Source: Gammaproteobacteria bacterium
GTDB taxonomy: Bacteria; Pseudomonadota; Gammaproteobacteria; CAIRSR01
DNA length: 63,815 nucleotides
Direction of reading: 5' to 3'
NCBI GenBank assembly: GCA_963575655.1
Contig: CAUYTY010000022.1
Span: 1-63,815, forward strand
Part shown: in pieces, positions 7,700 through 25,656 of the stretch
Layout: each line of letters opens with the position of its first letter
How positions within the stretch are numbered: position 1 is the first letter of the stretch
Program-made: the position numbers and the translations under genes
Notes under the pieces: model-generated
Seen by the model: only the letters and a program-made list of their open reading frames with translations
Database searches by the model: none
What the model was told of the DNA's origin: nothing

Positions 7700-7792
7700 T
7701 AACCCAAGTTGCTACCTATGCAGTGAGAAAAGAAAAAGCCCCTATCCCGGAGAGAGAGGGGAGAAAAGCGCGCTAGGTAGCAACTTGGGTTA
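7700..7792. repeat. palindromic intergenic repeat, family 1 (complete)
   Basis: The outer arms taacccaagttgctaccta and taggtagcaacttgggtta are perfect reverse complements of 19 bp. The core carries aaaaagcccctatcccg and gagaggggagaaaagcgcg. The element is 93 bp. It lies 44 bp upstream of the EF-hand gene. Confidence 0.9.
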
Positions 7793-16292: not shown

Positions 16293-17762
16293 TTACGGAT
16301 GAGACAACTCATCTTCTGGCTTTTTATCGGTAGTGGTGCATAACCGGTTGGAGGCGCCAGCCAAGGATCGTGCGCGTGATTGCGAGTAGATACTTTTTAT
16401 CACGAGACAGTTATGCCCCTTTTCCTTCAGAGTCAGGCATAAGGTTCTGGCTGTAGCCTCATCCGGTATCGACCGCAAACGTAAACGGAAGAATTCGCCA
16501 GACTCGTTGATAGTGACTACCAGCTTGTAATCCTTCAACAGGTCTGCATATTGCGTAACCAGGTGTCTCCGATATGCCTTGGTCCCCGCCAAATCACGTT
16601 CCGCAACAATCTGAAGCTGCCAACTATTAGAAGAGACCACCCGAGTCTTCTTAAACACGGGACAATCCCCTCCCCTCTCCTTCAGGGTCGCACACCAGTT
16701 TTGAACCATAACCTCCTTGGCCATGGGGCGCAGATGCAAATGGAAATGTCCACCATTGGATTCATCCATACCCATTACCGGTTCATAGTCATGCACCAGG
16801 TCGCCATACCGAGAGATAAGAGACTGGCGATATTCCTTTAGCTGCTCAATATCACGCCCTTCCATAAGCTGCACTTGCCAAAGAGTCTTGCCTGTTTTTC
16901 CAGTGAGGATACGTTTTACATTTCCGGTACAAGCCGTTGCCAGGGTTTGTCCACGGTCTTCCTGCGGAACGGGTGGTAGCGGCGGAGTCAGCGGAAGAGG
17001 TGGCGGTGCTGCACTAATTCGAGAACGGCCTTTCTTGACACGTTTATTTCCTACCAGCGGCGCGACCAATTCCGGTGCTGATTTAACTTGAGGAGAGGTC
17101 GCATCAGTTTCAACAATACGCGGACGCTCTGCAACACGTTCTTTTCCCACTACAGGCGGGGGGAACAATTCCGGTGTAGGTTGGGTTGCGTACGGGGTAG
17201 TTACCTCCGCTGCCGGGACGCGAACCTCCTTTTTTACACGTTCCTTAACCACCTGCGGTGGGTTAGATTCTGGCGTAGGTTGTGCCTCGTGCTGAAAGGT
17301 TGGAGCGACTTCAAAAGGTTTATGCTGCGATACCATCGGCGCAAGCGATAACGGAAACAATGGAGGGGGCGTATTTCCCGGGCGGGTTCGTTGGGTAGGA
17401 GTTTCTGGTTTGGCCTCCGTGGGCTGAACTGGAGGGATCGCTAGCGGCGCAACCGTCGGGATCAGCGCCGGCGGCGGTACGTTTCCTGATTCAGCGCGTT
17501 GTTCGGAATGTTCCGATTGGACCGTGACGGCCCCAGGCTCTGACGTTTGCACATTCGGCGATACCTGGGAAATTTCTTGGTAGTCCGAGGTCTTCGGCAA
17601 TGACAAAGTCGCTGGAGGTAGACGATGTATCCAACGCGGGTCCAGATCAGACGGGACACCATGAGGTAATGGTGCCATCTCATCCGCCATAACAGTATTG
17701 GCCAAAGGCATCAGTCCAATCAGAAAACTGAGTACCCAACCCAGGAGACCTATACGATCCAC
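16293..17762 (-). CDS. secreted, proline-rich protein with two SPOR-like domains
   Basis: The 489-residue product has a signal peptide (hydrophobic LLGWVLSFLIGLMPL, cleavage near VMADEMA). A long Pro/Glu/Thr-rich region follows (about 30-270), with a recurring tract of the form TPESNPPQVVKERVKKE / TPELFPPPVVGKERVAE. Two C-terminal SPOR-like domains of about 75 residues (around 285-375 and 385-465) have the pattern WQVQL...RLRLRSIPDEATARTLC...LKEKGHNCLVIK. SPOR domains bind denuded peptidoglycan at division sites. It follows the ParA-like gene by 22 bp and is therefore probably the last gene of that transcription unit. The role is inferred to be envelope or division-site related. Confidence 0.75.
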   Translation of the reverse strand: MDRIGLLGWVLSFLIGLMPLANTVMADEMAPLPHGVPSDLDPRWIHRLPPATLSLPKTSDYQEISQVSPNVQTSEPGAVTVQSEHSEQRAESGNVPPPALIPTVAPLAIPPVQPTEAKPETPTQRTRPGNTPPPLFPLSLAPMVSQHKPFEVAPTFQHEAQPTPESNPPQVVKERVKKEVRVPAAEVTTPYATQPTPELFPPPVVGKERVAERPRIVETDATSPQVKSAPELVAPLVGNKRVKKGRSRISAAPPPLPLTPPLPPVPQEDRGQTLATACTGNVKRILTGKTGKTLWQVQLMEGRDIEQLKEYRQSLISRYGDLVHDYEPVMGMDESNGGHFHLHLRPMAKEVMVQNWCATLKERGGDCPVFKKTRVVSSNSWQLQIVAERDLAGTKAYRRHLVTQYADLLKDYKLVVTINESGEFFRLRLRSIPDEATARTLCLTLKEKGHNCLVIKSIYSQSRARSLAGASNRLCTTTDKKPEDELSHP

Positions 17763-17784
17763 GCTATTCCCCTTTCGTCATGAA

Positions 17785-19212
17785 TCATTCAGGTGAGATG
17801 GCTACTGAGCAGGTTACTACCGCCCCCTTGGCCTGTGCCTCTTCTTCGCAGGCAAACAGTTGACTCCGGTTGTTGCCCACTAACTTCGTTCCCAGGATCA
17901 ATTCTCGATATGCTGTCTCGTCGGCCCGGAACAATAGCGTACTCGCGGAATTCCAATATTGTGCCGGACTAATCAACCAGGCCGCTAATTCAAAACGAAA
18001 CGTTACTGGCGCGATCAGTAAGAGAAATATCGGTAACAAGAATCCGCATACCCCAGAAATTAGAACCCTGTGTCTCGTCCATGCCTCTTGAGCCATTGAC
18101 CGATTACCAGGGTAATTGACTGGCGGTATCGATACAAAGGTGCCGCCATATTGCGTAGGTGATTCAAGGGGGGCCTGACGAGTAGTCAATTCAATCAACT
18201 CTTCGAGCACCTTGGGTTCTGGCTGACTCCTCGCCTCGGTGGCGTCATAGAGCAGACACGAGGGATCGACGAGCCAGGCATGAATTCGCTTCTCCATTGC
18301 CAAGCGAAGCTGAGCACTCTCCTCTTTTTGACGTTGGACCTCGCCCTTATTTTCTCCTTCATAGGCAGGAAAGAGGAGTTGTGATTGAGAGGTACTGGTC
18401 TGGGTCCCACGGTTTATTAATTTCAACCACTCAGCGGCCAGCTCCAGATAGGCCACACTAATCGGGTCATGCGGGGCATACACCAATACTGGTTTACTGT
18501 GCTGATCGGCCTCATCAACCTTTTCGCTCCAGGGAATCGCCAAAGGTAGGGCCATCGGTCCATATCCGCTATGTAGGGCGGTGACCAAGGCATTACCGGC
18601 ATCGGTTTCCTGGGTGGGAAGTAGATAGACCCCCCGCAACGGTTGACGCATCCCCCCGCGCAGCCGCTGAATCGTAGTTAACAATGCCGGCACCCCAGAG
18701 GCACTGGAAACGGCATCAATGGTGGTCGGTACGGGAATAAGCACCCAATGCGCGGCGCTCAAGGCATTGAGGGTAATGAGCCCGAGGTCGGAGGGACAAT
18801 TGGCGATGACCAGATCAAATCTTATCGGTAATGCCCGGAGGGTCTCCAGACTTTGGACGAGACGGGTACGACTATCGCCCTCCGAGGCCAAACGGTATTC
18901 GATCGCGTTTAGGTTATCCTCTGCCGGGAGCAGATATAGGTCCGGGATCTCCGTGGCAGCAATCATGTCTCGGGTAACAACGGCCTCAGTAAATAGACGC
19001 GAAGATCCCCCTTCCCCATGCCATCCCCGAATCAGAGAATTACCGATAGCCCCCCCTGGATCTAGGTCGATCAATAAGACCGTCCGCCCCGAAGCGGCAA
19101 AGGCCACAGCCAGATTCATGGAGGTTGTAGTTTTGCCCGCACCATCCAGGGTGCCAACAATCGCAATTACCTCAGGGGTCGCGCGAAGATCAGGGAGTTC
19201 TAGATTCATCAT
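17785..19212 (-). CDS. ParA/MinD-like ATPase with C-terminal membrane segment
   Basis: The 475-residue product has an N-terminal P-loop ATPase of the ParA/MinD class (about 12-255): GTLDGAGKTT as Walker A, VLLIDLDPGGAIGNSL as A', and FDLVIANCPSDLGLITL as Walker B. The signature lysine of KGG-x-GKT is replaced by Leu22, and the first glycine by Asp23, whereas the P-loop GKTT is kept. A linker (260-380) leads to one hydrophobic segment (about 392-412, VCGFLLPIFLLLIAP) and a short tail. Membrane-anchored ParA-like proteins are uncommon. The start overlaps the upstream gene by 23 bp. The cluster context suggests positioning of an envelope complex. It is not part of a recognisable cellulose operon. 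Confidence 0.72.
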   Translation of the reverse strand: MMNLELPDLRATPEVIAIVGTLDGAGKTTTSMNLAVAFAASGRTVLLIDLDPGGAIGNSLIRGWHGEGGSSRLFTEAVVTRDMIAATEIPDLYLLPAEDNLNAIEYRLASEGDSRTRLVQSLETLRALPIRFDLVIANCPSDLGLITLNALSAAHWVLIPVPTTIDAVSSASGVPALLTTIQRLRGGMRQPLRGVYLLPTQETDAGNALVTALHSGYGPMALPLAIPWSEKVDEADQHSKPVLVYAPHDPISVAYLELAAEWLKLINRGTQTSTSQSQLLFPAYEGENKGEVQRQKEESAQLRLAMEKRIHAWLVDPSCLLYDATEARSQPEPKVLEELIELTTRQAPLESPTQYGGTFVSIPPVNYPGNRSMAQEAWTRHRVLISGVCGFLLPIFLLLIAPVTFRFELAAWLISPAQYWNSASTLLFRADETAYRELILGTKLVGNNRSQLFACEEEAQAKGAVVTCSVAISPE

Positions 19213-19783
19213 GCTCAGTCTGTGAGACCAAATTTACCAAACTCTCCAATCCTTGGCGTTTCCGATCCATCCTGGAACCAGGATACGCAATATTGGGAGC
19301 AGGCTCGATAGGTTTGGGAGAAGGAGGAGAGGCCGGCTCGGCCGTGGGGAAAGGCGGCAGCGGCGACCGTTGCGGACGAGATAGGGAAACGGGAGTACGT
19401 ATGCCTTCGACACGCTCCGAGGAATTACCGAGCTTGGCCTTGACTTGTTGGCGATGTACTAGCGATTCGCGCGATGGCGGTCGCCACATCCGACGCTCGG
19501 GACCTACAGAAATCAGCGGCCGTTCCTTGGTCAAATTTCGAAGATTCGGCGCTGCACTCTCTGTATTGCGCAACGGGGTTTGTCGGGTCATATCGGGCGA
19601 CGTTTCCACAACAGAACTTTCTATAATCGGCTTTTCTGTAACCGTTATTTTTATTGGTGCCATGGAATCATGCTTGCGCTGTGCACGCTGTCGAAACCAC
19701 CATACCCCCAATCCAACCCACGCCGTTACGCCGAGAAGAGCAGCAGCCGATAGCACCCATGATACCCACCAGAGTTCCAGCAT
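19190..19783 (-). CDS. single-pass membrane protein of unknown function
   Basis: The 197-residue product has one N-terminal transmembrane helix (about 6-30, VSWVLSAAALLGVTAWVGLGVWWF) followed by a basic stop and a long disordered Ser/Pro/Arg-rich cytoplasmic tail. I recognise no domain. It lies upstream of the ParA-like gene and overlaps it by 23 bp, so the two are translationally coupled and the products probably interact or act together. A family-1 repeat lies between it and the coiled-coil gene upstream. Confidence 0.6.
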   Translation of the reverse strand: MLELWWVSWVLSAAALLGVTAWVGLGVWWFRQRAQRKHDSMAPIKITVTEKPIIESSVVETSPDMTRQTPLRNTESAAPNLRNLTKERPLISVGPERRMWRPPSRESLVHRQQVKAKLGNSSERVEGIRTPVSLSRPQRSPLPPFPTAEPASPPSPKPIEPAPNIAYPGSRMDRKRQGLESLVNLVSQTEHDESRTP

Positions 19784-19893
19784 TCACGATCCCGCTTACA
19801 GTTTGTCGGTTTCTGGTTATTTCCAAAAAGGCCAAACTCTACTACTGTTAATGTAACTAAGCCATTCTGTTAATCCGCGACACCCTACTTACT

Positions 19894-19965
19894 TAACTCA
19901 AATTGCTACCTAGTACGCCTTTCTCGCCTCTCCCCCCGGGAGAGGGGCTTTCTCGTTACAACTTT
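19894..19965. repeat. palindromic intergenic repeat, family 1 (degenerate, one arm)
   Basis: It starts ttaactcaaattgctaccta, with the core cctctccccccgggagagg followed by ggctttctcg. The right arm is lost. It is inside the gap of the envelope cluster and therefore probably transcribed. Confidence 0.65.
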
Positions 19966-20002
19966 ACGCCAGTGGCCAGCCTAGAGCAGCACCCCAGGTA
20001 AA

Positions 20003-21556
20003 TCACCCATGTTCTGATACAAATGAATCTTGCTCTGAGACCTTCTTAAAGCGGTCCAACAACTGCTTGAGGCATAATTTATTCGGTTTGCAGAACGGAA
20101 TCCGGCAAGTCTTGGAACAAACGTGGGAGCTAAGACCTTTTTCTGTAGAATCGACACCAGGATATGATCCCCATACCTCGCGACGCAGGTCCGCATACCA
20201 TTGCTCCAGGTCGAGGCGGTCGCGTGCCGTCTCTGCCCAACGCCAAATCGGGGCATACTCAATCACAATTAGCTCGCTGATCGCAGCGTCCCAATTACCG
20301 CGCCGCACCTCTCCTAGGGCGTGAGCCACACGCTCTTCGATCTTGCCAATGCGACCCCGCACGGCACTGTCGTCATGAAACAAAGGTAACCAGGCATTCC
20401 AAAACGGGCGGGTGGTTGCCTCTTGCTCCTCTCGACGAATCAAGAGTTCACCATAAAGGTGTTCCAGTGTCGTTAACAGTAGTGGACGTCCCGGCACACC
20501 ACGTGCAGCAATGGGTTCTAATTGAGCAAGGATCTCTGATTCGCCCCACATTGCCTGGAGAGCCGTCAATTCCGCTTGGAAATCGCTGCCCTCGATCAAT
20601 TTCAGACCCAACTCCTCCACCGCCATTACCCGCCATGACATCTCACGCTGACGCTCCTGGCGCTGCGCTGCCTCGTGTAATACTTGTTCGAGGCGCTCGT
20701 CCATTTGGCCGCGCGATGATTCCAGAGCATTCATCAGGTCCTCTGAGCGTCGCTCCAGCCGTTCACTCAATTCGGCCTGTGATGATTCTACGGCCTTGAA
20801 TAGATCCTTGGAGCATTGCCCAAGCCCTAACCAAGGACTCAATTTAGAACGAAACACCAGCCACCAGACTATGCCCGGAATGAGCATCCCCAAGAGCAAC
20901 CAGGCTGACGGATGAAAATTGACATATTGCCTCCATTGCTCAAACCAACGGGTCTGGGACGATTCCATTGCCTTCGCCAGATCCTGTGAACGTTGTTCTA
21001 ATAATTCACCGAGGCGGGCCTGCGATGATTCCACGATTTTGACTAATTCTTGCGAATTCTGTACCGCTGGCGTCACGGGTGCGGGTCCTATATCCGAATG
21101 AAGCGCAACCAGTGCCACCAAACCCACGCTAAACACCAAGAGAAGCAACCATAGCGGCCAGCGCAATAGGTCCAGACGCCGCCTTAATTGCGCACCCCAC
21201 TGCGCCTGGGATGATTCTACGGTCTCGATGAGGGTCTGCGCATTTTTCTCCAGTCGTGCCAACGACGATTCCATGAGCTTGGTAAGATGTTCCGAGTGTC
21301 GTTCCCACTGCTCGCCTAAACGAGGCGATGCCCCGCCCTCTGCCACTTCAAAAAACTTGGGAGTCGCAGTTGTTTTGAGTAGCGATTGATAATCAGCGGA
21401 CATCATACGTTTCAGACGCGGGTCCTGCGTCAGAATCATCTGCCAACGCTCTTCTACCGGTTGTGCAAGGAGCGCATCGAGTATTTCCCTGCTCTCCAGA
21501 TACGCAGCCAGCTCCCCATCAGCAATTAATTCGTCTAAACGCGCTTTCCAGGGCAT
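20003..21556 (-). CDS. two-TM coiled-coil protein with Mic60/HemX-like C-terminal region
   Basis: The 517-residue product has an N-terminal helical region, a first transmembrane helix at about 132-152 (PLWLLLLVFSVGLVALVAL) and a second at about 218-236 (LLLGMLIPGIVWWLVF). Repeated 33-residue coiled-coil units lie around them, each carrying ESSQA...ERRSEDL...ESSQ (starting near 114, 176, 257). Residues 310-460 resemble the C-terminal region of bacterial Mic60/mitofilin and HemX proteins: a short F-x-x-E-L-x-A-L-Q helix, LEPIAARGVP, then a helical hairpin ending RRGNWDAAISEL. This is my pattern match and was not tested by a search. The last 55 residues are unusual, with four Cys (HVCSKTCRIPFCKPNKLC). 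First gene of the envelope cluster. Confidence 0.6.
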   Translation of the reverse strand: MPWKARLDELIADGELAAYLESREILDALLAQPVEERWQMILTQDPRLKRMMSADYQSLLKTTATPKFFEVAEGGASPRLGEQWERHSEHLTKLMESSLARLEKNAQTLIETVESSQAQWGAQLRRRLDLLRWPLWLLLLVFSVGLVALVALHSDIGPAPVTPAVQNSQELVKIVESSQARLGELLEQRSQDLAKAMESSQTRWFEQWRQYVNFHPSAWLLLGMLIPGIVWWLVFRSKLSPWLGLGQCSKDLFKAVESSQAELSERLERRSEDLMNALESSRGQMDERLEQVLHEAAQRQERQREMSWRVMAVEELGLKLIEGSDFQAELTALQAMWGESEILAQLEPIAARGVPGRPLLLTTLEHLYGELLIRREEQEATTRPFWNAWLPLFHDDSAVRGRIGKIEERVAHALGEVRRGNWDAAISELIVIEYAPIWRWAETARDRLDLEQWYADLRREVWGSYPGVDSTEKGLSSHVCSKTCRIPFCKPNKLCLKQLLDRFKKVSEQDSFVSEHG

Positions 21557-23359: not shown

Positions 23360-23463
23360 AGAAGCCTCTGAATGATCTCAAGCAGGTTGCTCTGGTCAAA
23401 ATCGCTCTTGACGAGGTAGGCATTGGCGCCCACCTCGACTCCATACTCGCGATCCTTTTGCTA
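23356..23463 (-). other. cheA 3' end beyond an in-frame amber codon
   Basis: After the TAG at 23461-23463, the same frame continues without interruption for 34 codons (QKDREYGVEVGANAYLVKSDF, ending IIQRLL) to a TGA at 23356-23358. This stretch supplies the last helix and strand of a normal CheA-linked receiver domain. The TGA overlaps the cheB start as ATGA, as in the intact module 2. The amber codon therefore interrupts a previously full-length gene. Confidence 0.85.
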
Positions 23464-25656
23464 GCCCAATGCCGTAACCAGTACCACCGGAAGATCCTTG
23501 AGATTTTGGTTGGCGCGGATCCGAGAAGTCAGTTCAAAACCGTTCATGCGTGGCATGTCTACATCAGAGACCACGAGGTCGAAAGATTCCGTCTTGAGTC
23601 GAGTGAGGGCATCCAGTCCGTCCACCGTGGCCACAACCTGAAAACCGGCGCCTTCCAAGATACTTTTGACCAGCGTTCGGGCCGTGATGGAATCCTCGGC
23701 GATCAATAGGCGGCGTCGTTCCGTTGCGGTGTTTTCAAGATCGCCAACTGGCATTGGTACTGCGCCCGCCGATTCCAGCAGGTCGAGGACATTGAGAACG
23801 GGAATGATGGCGCCACTGGCCGAGAGTGAGGCACCAGCGATGTGCCGAACCCGTGGGAGCTGCGGACCAAGGCTCTTCACCATGACCTCCTGCTCACCCA
23901 GCACCTCATCGACAATGAAGGCCACCTCGCGGTTGGCAGCACGCATCACCACCACTGGCCAAACGCTTGCTTGGGAACGCCCACTGACCCCGGACAGTCC
24001 CAGATTATCCCGCAAGCGTGCGAGCGACACCGCGCGTCCTCCCACCGCAACCGTCTGACGGTTTTCGACGGTCCTGATTTCGCTGGGTTTGATGCGCGTT
24101 ACACGGGCCACATTGGCGGTGGGGATGGCAAAAGATTGATCCGCCACCGTCACGAACACCCCGCGAAAGGTGGCGCGTGTCAGTGGCAGGGTCAGGCGAA
24201 AGGTTGTACCAATACCTGGTGTCGAGGTTACCCGAATCGTTCCACCGAGCTGTTCGACCTTCTCGCGAACAATTGCCATACCCAGTCCCCGGCCCGAGAG
24301 GTCGGTGATGAGCGGACTGGTAGATAATCCCGAGTGGAAAATGAGTTCACTAACCTCGGTGTCGGTCAGGCGAGCGGCCTCGGTGGCGGTGACGAGTCCG
24401 AGTCGGATGGCGCTTTGCCGAACGCGTTCAATATCGATCCCCGCGCCATCGTCGCTCACCTGAATCTCGACGCGATTCCCTGGGAGCGGCGCAACCGCGA
24501 TCGTAATGGTTGCCCGACTGGGTTTGCCTACCGCCTGGCGGCGATTCGATTTTTCCAGGCCGTGATCGATACCGTTGCGCAGGAGATGAATGAGCGGATC
24601 CTTGAGTTCATCGAGTACCCGGCGATCGACTTCAATGTCTTCACCGCGAATCACAAGTTCGGCCTCCTTACCCTGTTCACGCGCCAGATCGCGCACCTGT
24701 CTTGGCATGACGCCGAGGAGGGTCGAACATGGGAGGAGCAGGGCCTTCTTGGTGTCCTCCAGCAGGTTCTCGACGCTGAGACCGAGTGCGCGTGCCTCCT
24801 GTTGTGCCGATCGGGCCAAATTTAGCAGTGACTGCTCCAGTTCCTTGGCGTGAAGTATCTCGGCATCGATGAGTTCGTTTACGGCGACAGTGGTATCCTG
24901 ATGCTGTCCCTGATGCTGTCGAATCTTCCGCCTCAGGCGACTGGCTTGCTGGGTGTGCCGATGATTCCAATGACCTAGCTCGATAGCCAACCGGCGGAGT
25001 ACAGCGGCCTGGCCGTTCGCGGTGATCTTGGCGCCCACTAGCTCTTCGGCTTCCAACAAAATGGACTGAAGCTTGCGCGTGGCTACCCGAACGGTCTCCG
25101 AGGTGGCTGCTACCTTTGTCCCCGGTCCGTCATTTCCCGTAGTAGGAGCGGGGGGAGAAATATCTGCACCCGCACCTGATTCTGCCGAGACAAGGGGGGA
25201 GAGGGGAGAGGGTTGCGCCACGACCGGCGCATCCAGTTCATCCGGCGCTCCTTGCGTTACCCGCCGTAGCACCGCAAGCGCCGATTTCTCACTCTCGCTG
25301 CCCTCTGGTGAGGAGGTCGCGCCCGGACTGGCACACAACGTGGTGATCACGTCGATTGCAGGATGGATGCCGTCGAGCAATGCGGCAGACAGAGTGAGTT
25401 CGCGGCGTTTCGTTGCCGCGAAAATGCTTTCAAGCTCCGTGCACAATGCCTCGACATTGGGAAGACTGACCGAACGCGCCGCGCCCTTGAGGGAATGGGC
25501 CTCGCGAAAGATGCGTTCGACGATGGACGCCTGCTCGGCCTCATTCGCCCGCTCGATTGCCATGAGTCCGGCGGTGATGGCCTCCAGGTGCTCACCCGCC
25601 TCGATCTTAAACTCCTCCCGCAAACGCGCCAGGAATTCCTCTTTTTTCTTATCCAT
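23461..25656 (-). CDS. cheA: hybrid chemotaxis histidine kinase CheA-REC, ended by an amber codon (module 1)
   Basis: The 731-residue product has an N-terminal HPt domain (phosphorylated His54 in REAHSLKGAARSV), a helical linker, the H-ATPase domain (N-box LLRNGIDHGLE, G1 VSDDGAGID, G2 SGRGLGMAIV), a CheW-like domain and a receiver domain starting RRRLLIAEDSIT with Asp in VVSDVDMPRMNG. The receiver stops at VTALG because of a TAG, leaving about 34 residues untranslated. Truncation would probably destabilise only the receiver, not the kinase. Unlike module 2 (40253), the gene is therefore partial. Neighbours: MCP and cheW upstream, cheB downstream. Confidence 0.93.
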   Translation of the reverse strand: MDKKKEEFLARLREEFKIEAGEHLEAITAGLMAIERANEAEQASIVERIFREAHSLKGAARSVSLPNVEALCTELESIFAATKRRELTLSAALLDGIHPAIDVITTLCASPGATSSPEGSESEKSALAVLRRVTQGAPDELDAPVVAQPSPLSPLVSAESGAGADISPPAPTTGNDGPGTKVAATSETVRVATRKLQSILLEAEELVGAKITANGQAAVLRRLAIELGHWNHRHTQQASRLRRKIRQHQGQHQDTTVAVNELIDAEILHAKELEQSLLNLARSAQQEARALGLSVENLLEDTKKALLLPCSTLLGVMPRQVRDLAREQGKEAELVIRGEDIEVDRRVLDELKDPLIHLLRNGIDHGLEKSNRRQAVGKPSRATITIAVAPLPGNRVEIQVSDDGAGIDIERVRQSAIRLGLVTATEAARLTDTEVSELIFHSGLSTSPLITDLSGRGLGMAIVREKVEQLGGTIRVTSTPGIGTTFRLTLPLTRATFRGVFVTVADQSFAIPTANVARVTRIKPSEIRTVENRQTVAVGGRAVSLARLRDNLGLSGVSGRSQASVWPVVVMRAANREVAFIVDEVLGEQEVMVKSLGPQLPRVRHIAGASLSASGAIIPVLNVLDLLESAGAVPMPVGDLENTATERRRLLIAEDSITARTLVKSILEGAGFQVVATVDGLDALTRLKTESFDLVVSDVDMPRMNGFELTSRIRANQNLKDLPVVLVTALG

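Follow-up and report, generated by a model that had tools for sequence, protein, structure and literature searches.

Mitofilin domains shape the inner folds of mitochondria, and SPOR domains bind denuded peptidoglycan. A cluster of four genes from a gammaproteobacterium – found within a stretch of DNA of 63,815 nucleotides, hereafter the window – appeared on initial annotation to bring the two together: a coiled-coil membrane protein (CC) with a C-terminal region resembling Mic60 or HemX, a further membrane protein (the TM protein), a ParA-like ATPase and a SPOR protein. The locus raises the question of whether the resemblance to Mic60 is real and, if it is, what a mitofilin domain might do in such company.

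The cluster and its distribution

All four ORFs lie on the minus strand at the positions given in the initial annotation (Table 1), and its account of their spacing agrees with the ORF coordinates: the TM and ParA-like genes share 23 bp, and 22 bp separate the ParA-like stop from the start of the SPOR gene. Hydropathy, Pfam matches and alignments likewise bear out the kinds of protein that it proposed – a two-TM coiled-coil protein, a single-TM protein with a disordered tail, a TM-bearing ParA-like protein and a secreted protein with two SPOR domains. Between the CC and TM genes of the window are 219 bp. A dispersed repeat of about 70 bp has one copy in this interval (19871-19957) and another at 7729-7792 of the window; it occurs in at least 40 places in the genome, mostly at 81-89% identity.

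Table 1. Coordinates of the cluster genes, their domains and segments, and related genes elsewhere in the family (positions are those of the window unless a contig or locus is named)
Feature	Position	Strand	Description	Basis
CC	20003-21556	-	517 aa, two-TM coiled-coil protein, C-terminal mitofilin-like domain	ORF, orthologues in G001-G003, profile homology to Mic60
CC TM1	21101-21157	-	residues 134-152, N side positive	hydropathy and K/R counts, four orthologues
CC TM2	20852-20908	-	residues 217-235, C side positive	hydropathy and K/R counts, four orthologues
Mitofilin-like domain of CC	20168-20632	-	residues ~309-463, predicted cytoplasmic	hhalign, model, column-by-column alignment
CC four-Cys motif C-x3-C-x4-C-x5-C	20072-20119	-	residues 480-495, C-terminus	invariant in 4/4 orthologues
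TM protein	19190-19783	-	197 aa, N-terminal TM, long disordered tail	orthologue alignment, flanking charges
ParA-like protein	17785-19212	-	475 aa, ParA/MinD-superfamily ATPase-like	AAA_31 match, motifs, alignment
TM segment of ParA-like protein	18010-18066	-	residues 383-401	hydropathy
SPOR protein	16293-17762	-	489 aa, GTG start, secreted tandem-SPOR	PF05036 match, alignment
First SPOR domain	16647-16886	-	residues ~293-372	homologous to second, hhalign 99.6%
Second SPOR domain	16389-16637	-	residues ~376-458	Pfam match 378-456
Second mitofilin protein (f1can)	G000:C184:1030-1710 (L118 1024-1899), L119 5081-5887, L120 2479-3327, L121 7709-8524
KGGVGKS ParA-type ATPase	L017 192-1028, L016 1-645, L015 7120-7890, L122 3888-4655		~86-87% identical across genera

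Our sample of the family comprises four genomes from two genera of little-known lake bacteria: that of the window (G000), G001, G002 and G003. The initial annotation had proposed a search of gene neighbourhoods in related genomes, and the four genes do co-occur there: the order CC, TM, ParA-like, SPOR is common to all four family genomes, the SPOR gene of G002 running off the end of its contig such that only the N-terminal part is visible. Since orthologues stand in the same order in three further genomes, the cluster genes are not chance ORFs. In orthologue alignments identity to the window proteins is 51-60% for CC, 57-63% for the ParA-like protein, 38-45% for the TM protein and 41-47% for the SPOR protein. 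The gap between CC and TM genes measures 32-33 bp in G001 and G002, and about 2 kb in G003, where it holds other genes including an SBF-type transporter; CC being split off by the repeat in the window and by these genes in G003, strict co-transcription is not universal.

The cluster appears confined to this family. A CC profile recovered no member beyond the four family genomes among 369 gammaproteobacterial genomes, and in the 365 others no protein matched the ParA-like tail profile with a credible score. A scan of genome contigs with the CC alignment returned only two metagenome-assembled genomes, the 'uncultured Thiotrichales bacterium' KR_bin-0880 and KR_bin-4016, which correspond to G002 and G003; a single-protein scan of genome contigs with the ParA-like protein gave no match, nor did a plasmid search with the C-terminal domain of CC.

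G001, G002 and G003 have an additional ParA-type ATPase gene just upstream of CC; its KGGVGKS motif is normal, and the window genome lacks the gene. It is within about 20-30 bp of CC in G002 and G003 (the G003 copy is truncated by a contig end); in G001 a short ORF with a transposon-like C-terminus intervenes. G002 carries a second copy elsewhere. The flanks of the cluster vary by genome: a chemosensory MCP-CheA-CheB operon in the window, FlgH in G001 and a PrmC-type methyltransferase in G003. The CheA homologue of the window (gene 23461-25656) has an in-frame TAG within its receiver domain (region 23360-23540, minus strand; VTALG, the stop, then QKDREYGVEVGANAYLVKS...), after which the frame runs on to its natural end just before CheB; sequencing error, pseudogene and readthrough are candidate explanations. 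Elsewhere in the window is a HEARO (HNH-endonuclease-associated) RNA (RF02033; 49582-49833, minus strand, 114 bits).

A remote mitofilin domain in CC

The C-terminal region of CC is, by profile homology, a remote mitofilin domain, and its resemblance to Mic60 genuine. For comparison, alphaproteobacterial Mic60 sequences were gathered with Pfam PF09731 and HemX with PF04375. Aligned by hhalign against a profile of 37 Mic60 sequences, the C-terminal profile of CC gave a probability of 96% (P 4e-9 to 6e-9) and a score of 62-64, against 22.2 for the best of 200 column shuffles and 17 for the reversed profile; the match spans CC residues 308-466, which follow the coiled coil. A Mic60-only alphaproteobacterial profile scored each of the four CC proteins at 29-40 bits, and picked the window CC from gammaproteobacterial genomes at E 1.6e-10. 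The strongest test is the reverse one, in which a profile built from CC only was run over 385 alphaproteobacterial genomes: the best 10 of 14 matches were all Mic60, scoring 125-209 bits on the Mic60 profile. A smaller test of the same kind, on 1505 ORFs, agreed. Features that align between CC and Mic60 include F--EL, GVP, the RG-W--AI--L stretch and an invariant C-terminal Trp.

The initial annotation had named Mic60 and HemX together; the Mic60 half of that claim stands on the reciprocal profile tests and the hhalign match, while HemX is rejected, with an hhalign probability of 0.1-0.2% and no profile match. A ZorA identity was also set aside, the PADLOC ZorA and NCBIfam ZorA_3 models giving weak coiled-coil matches (E 0.0065-0.01). 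CC does not reach the curated cut-off of the Pfam Mitofilin family (PF09731), and NCBIfam likewise yields neither a Mitofilin nor a HemX match. Diverged domains of this kind have been accepted elsewhere: the cryptic mitofilin domains of Euglenozoa reached a probability of 97-99% in HHpred and scored 73-93 by profile (PMC12631773).

In the model of CC the coiled coil ahead of the domain is a single predicted helix (residues 249-322), and the mitofilin-like region is helical, with pLDDT 81-90 across most of residues 400-460. Foldseek and VIA-align searches of the PDB with this model gave only generic helical bundles, with no Mic60 among the matches listed; given that the whole-protein model has a pTM of 0.36 and derives from only four sequences, these searches say little.

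A central issue is the side of the membrane on which the domain lies. In each of the four orthologues both segments of CC are markedly hydrophobic, and positive charge before TM1 and after TM2 leads to a predicted N-in/C-in topology; both ends of CC, and the mitofilin domain with them, are thus predicted to be cytoplasmic, the charge counts being the sole basis. The initial annotation had remarked that a cytoplasmic domain would differ from known Mic60, and such a difference now appears to hold. A second departure concerns LBS1, the known membrane-bending helix, the assignment of which we verified on the solved fungal Mic60 (7pv1). Its Phe position is Leu in 4/4 CC proteins and F in 31/37 alphaproteobacterial Mic60 sequences. 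In fungal Mic60 a change of this Phe to Asp leaves liposome tubulation mostly deficient (PMC5460017), and the Leu of CC therefore suggests that the helix may not work there.

Seen against alphaproteobacterial and mitochondrial Mic60 (PF09731), then, CC has a C-terminal domain that is homologous along the entire signature, conserved Trp and GVP turn included, and shares a coiled coil and TM segment ahead of it. Unlike Mic60, in which a single N-terminal TM precedes a domain located in the periplasm or intermembrane space, CC has two TMs, a domain predicted to face the cytoplasm, an added Cys4 tail and an N-terminal region of 130 residues; it lies outside a hem operon, and its partners are ParA-like and SPOR proteins. 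Although the domain is present, we do not file CC as a Mic60: the LBS1 Phe is replaced and the predicted topology is another. Another comparison is with Mic34 and Mic40 of Euglenozoa, which like CC are diverged mitofilin-domain proteins found solely by profile-profile comparison and of non-canonical topology, but which are soluble mitochondrial proteins unconnected to cell wall or ParA (PMC12631773).

Partner proteins and a second mitofilin protein

The TM protein has a tail with two motifs conserved among orthologues, WRPP-R--L--RQQ and GLESLV; the positive residues that follow the TM segment place this tail, by prediction, in the cytoplasm. The ParA-like protein contains a P-loop NTPase domain of the ParA/MinD superfamily (AAA_31, PF13614, E 2.5e-27; PF01656, E 1.2e-12); on BcsQ models it scores over the cut-off for PF06564 (E 2.3e-5) and below it for TIGR03371 (E 6.6e-16), and in a PHROGs search the only match was ParA. 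The P-loop fold and GKTTT are retained as in BcsQ, ParA and MinD. In contrast to those ATPases, none of the four orthologues has the signature Lys (LDGAGKTT type as opposed to KGGxGKT), and each has Asn for the Walker B Asp (NCPS); the protein also has its own TM, followed by a tail some 65-75 residues long that includes two invariant Cys. Its AlphaFold model has a pLDDT of 40.

The SPOR protein (PF05036, E 6.8e-7, 30.0 bits against a cut-off of 21) has a signal-peptide-like N-terminus – its only TM-like anchor – and a Pro-rich linker ahead of two SPOR domains, the one a duplicate of the other. A SPOR domain, a periplasmic location and a Pro-rich linker are held in common with FtsN, DamX, DedD and RlpA; the protein differs from these in being secreted and in having its two SPOR domains in tandem, both of which show a Cys pair in the alignment.

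CC is not the only mitofilin protein of these bacteria. When the Mic60-only profile was run over the 369 gammaproteobacterial genomes, the four best matches (E 1e-24 to 6e-32) were a second protein, f1can, of 268-291 residues, encoded in the same four genomes; beyond these genomes there was no comparable match, the remaining hits reaching at most about 23 bits, mostly at coiled-coil positions. Against Mic60 f1can gives a probability of 99.7% (P 2e-25), and in two of the four genomes it scores above the cut-off of Pfam Mitofilin. It has one N-in TM, a domain predicted to be periplasmic, and the LBS1 Phe (4/4) and Trp are kept: judged from its sequence, f1can is a near-canonical Mic60. It thus shares with CC a homologous domain and the same genomes, and differs in its single N-in TM, in keeping the Phe and in having no ParA or SPOR gene at its locus.

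Conserved beside f1can are genes for a PBP-like (PstS-like) binding protein, for a DUF6524 protein and for one secreted protein some 235 aa long; no hem genes are among them. Beside it in the window genome are two convergent genes whose 3' ends overlap (L118 5413-6648 and 6578-7768), encoding proteins of 411 and 396 aa with hydrophobic segments and no confident family; the pair is also found in G002 and G003. The f1can gene of the window genome lies on a 98.9-kb contig bearing several copies of the genome's dispersed repeat, which argues against contamination. HemX (PF04375) is absent from all four family genomes and present in 26 of the 33 other class members tested. The mitofilin tree, in which CC sits on a very long branch, gives no resolution as to whether f1can originated within or beside Alphaproteobacteria.

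A putative scaffold and its alternatives

How might these proteins act together? Our preferred reading, in which our confidence is evenly poised, is that the cluster encodes a lineage-specific scaffold of the inner membrane linked to the cell wall. CC would be held in the membrane by a hairpin of its two TMs, its N- and C-termini both cytoplasmic, would oligomerise by way of coiled coils on either side of the bilayer, and would present its divergent mitofilin domain and Cys4 tail (of metal-binding type) to the cytoplasm. There these parts could come into contact with the TM protein, through its tail, and with the ParA-like protein, through its ATPase domain. The latter protein, crossing the membrane once with a small disulfide-type tail to the periplasm, would probably be a slow or non-hydrolysing nucleotide switch that regulates the scaffold. 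The secreted tandem-SPOR protein would dock on denuded peptidoglycan and so keep the complex where the wall is being remodelled, for instance at the septum. One would then expect an inner membrane that is locally shaped or tethered. The gene set and its conserved order, the mitofilin homology, the altered ATPase motifs and the tandem SPOR domains are computed results, and the topology in this scheme is predicted; complex formation, localisation and membrane shaping we infer. Given the SPOR and mitofilin domains, the initial suggestion that the set positions or shapes membrane at the division site is plausible.

One objection – that the mitofilin similarity is mere convergence of coiled-coil or helical sequence, and CC an unrelated lineage-specific protein – draws on the tendency of coiled-coil-rich queries to give false matches, on the other gammaproteobacterial hits of up to 23 bits falling mostly in the N-terminal coiled-coil positions of the Mic60 profile, and on the absence of a Pfam match to CC. 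We regard it as very improbable: in CC the signal comes from the domain that follows the coiled coil, neither shuffled nor reversed profiles exceed 22.2, the ten best matches of the CC-only profile in 385 genomes were Mic60, and the invariant Trp, F--EL, GVP and RG-W motifs align. Alternatively, CC might be a functional, true Mic60 with a periplasmic domain – one hydrophobic segment not spanning the membrane, or the N-terminal region being exported – that makes membrane junctions or contacts between inner and outer membranes as in Alphaproteobacteria. The homology itself is in keeping with this, as are the periplasmic SPOR partners and the four Cys, which could form two disulfides where the periplasmic parts of the partners are also Cys-paired. 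Yet the hydrophobicity of both segments is strong throughout the four orthologues and the charges favour N-in/C-in, the LBS1 Phe is lost, and f1can already provides a protein of standard Mic60 topology in the same genomes; we consider a true Mic60 quite unlikely.

A different possibility is that the cluster determines where another machine sits, at the pole or at midcell – be it a polysaccharide exporter, a chemosensory array or a flagellum – as ATPases of the BcsQ or ParC type do, with the mitofilin domain serving as nothing but a protein-binding helical bundle. The scores of the ParA-like protein on BcsQ models (PF06564, TIGR03371) point this way, as do the MCP-CheA-CheB operon that precedes the cluster in the window and the FlgH gene that adjoins it in G001; but these neighbours are not conserved, G003 having the methyltransferase instead, and no cellulose synthase gene is found among ORFs some 5 kb either side of the cluster in the window. 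This reading, too, we think unlikely. Returning to the wall-linked scaffold, and taking CC and f1can together, we suggest tentatively, with rather less than even confidence, that one family may possess two mitofilin systems. One would be a near-canonical Mic60 in the periplasm; the other, an 'inside-out' complex that shapes the membrane and is anchored to peptidoglycan, would consist of a mitofilin protein facing the cytoplasm, a ParA-like membrane protein impaired in hydrolysis and a tandem-SPOR protein.

Mic60, which shapes membranes (PMC5460017), has been said to occur only in Alphaproteobacteria and mitochondria (PMC9764997), and this limited distribution forms part of the argument for cristae deriving from an alphaproteobacterial endosymbiont. 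Our literature search, which covered mainly openly accessible papers, found no report of Mic60 in Gammaproteobacteria. That a family of Gammaproteobacteria encodes two mitofilin-domain proteins and lacks HemX broadens the mitofilin family, and raises the question of whether these proteins arrived by transfer or have an older origin. The cluster itself would be a bacterial case of a mitofilin domain wired to cell-wall binding and a ParA-like protein.
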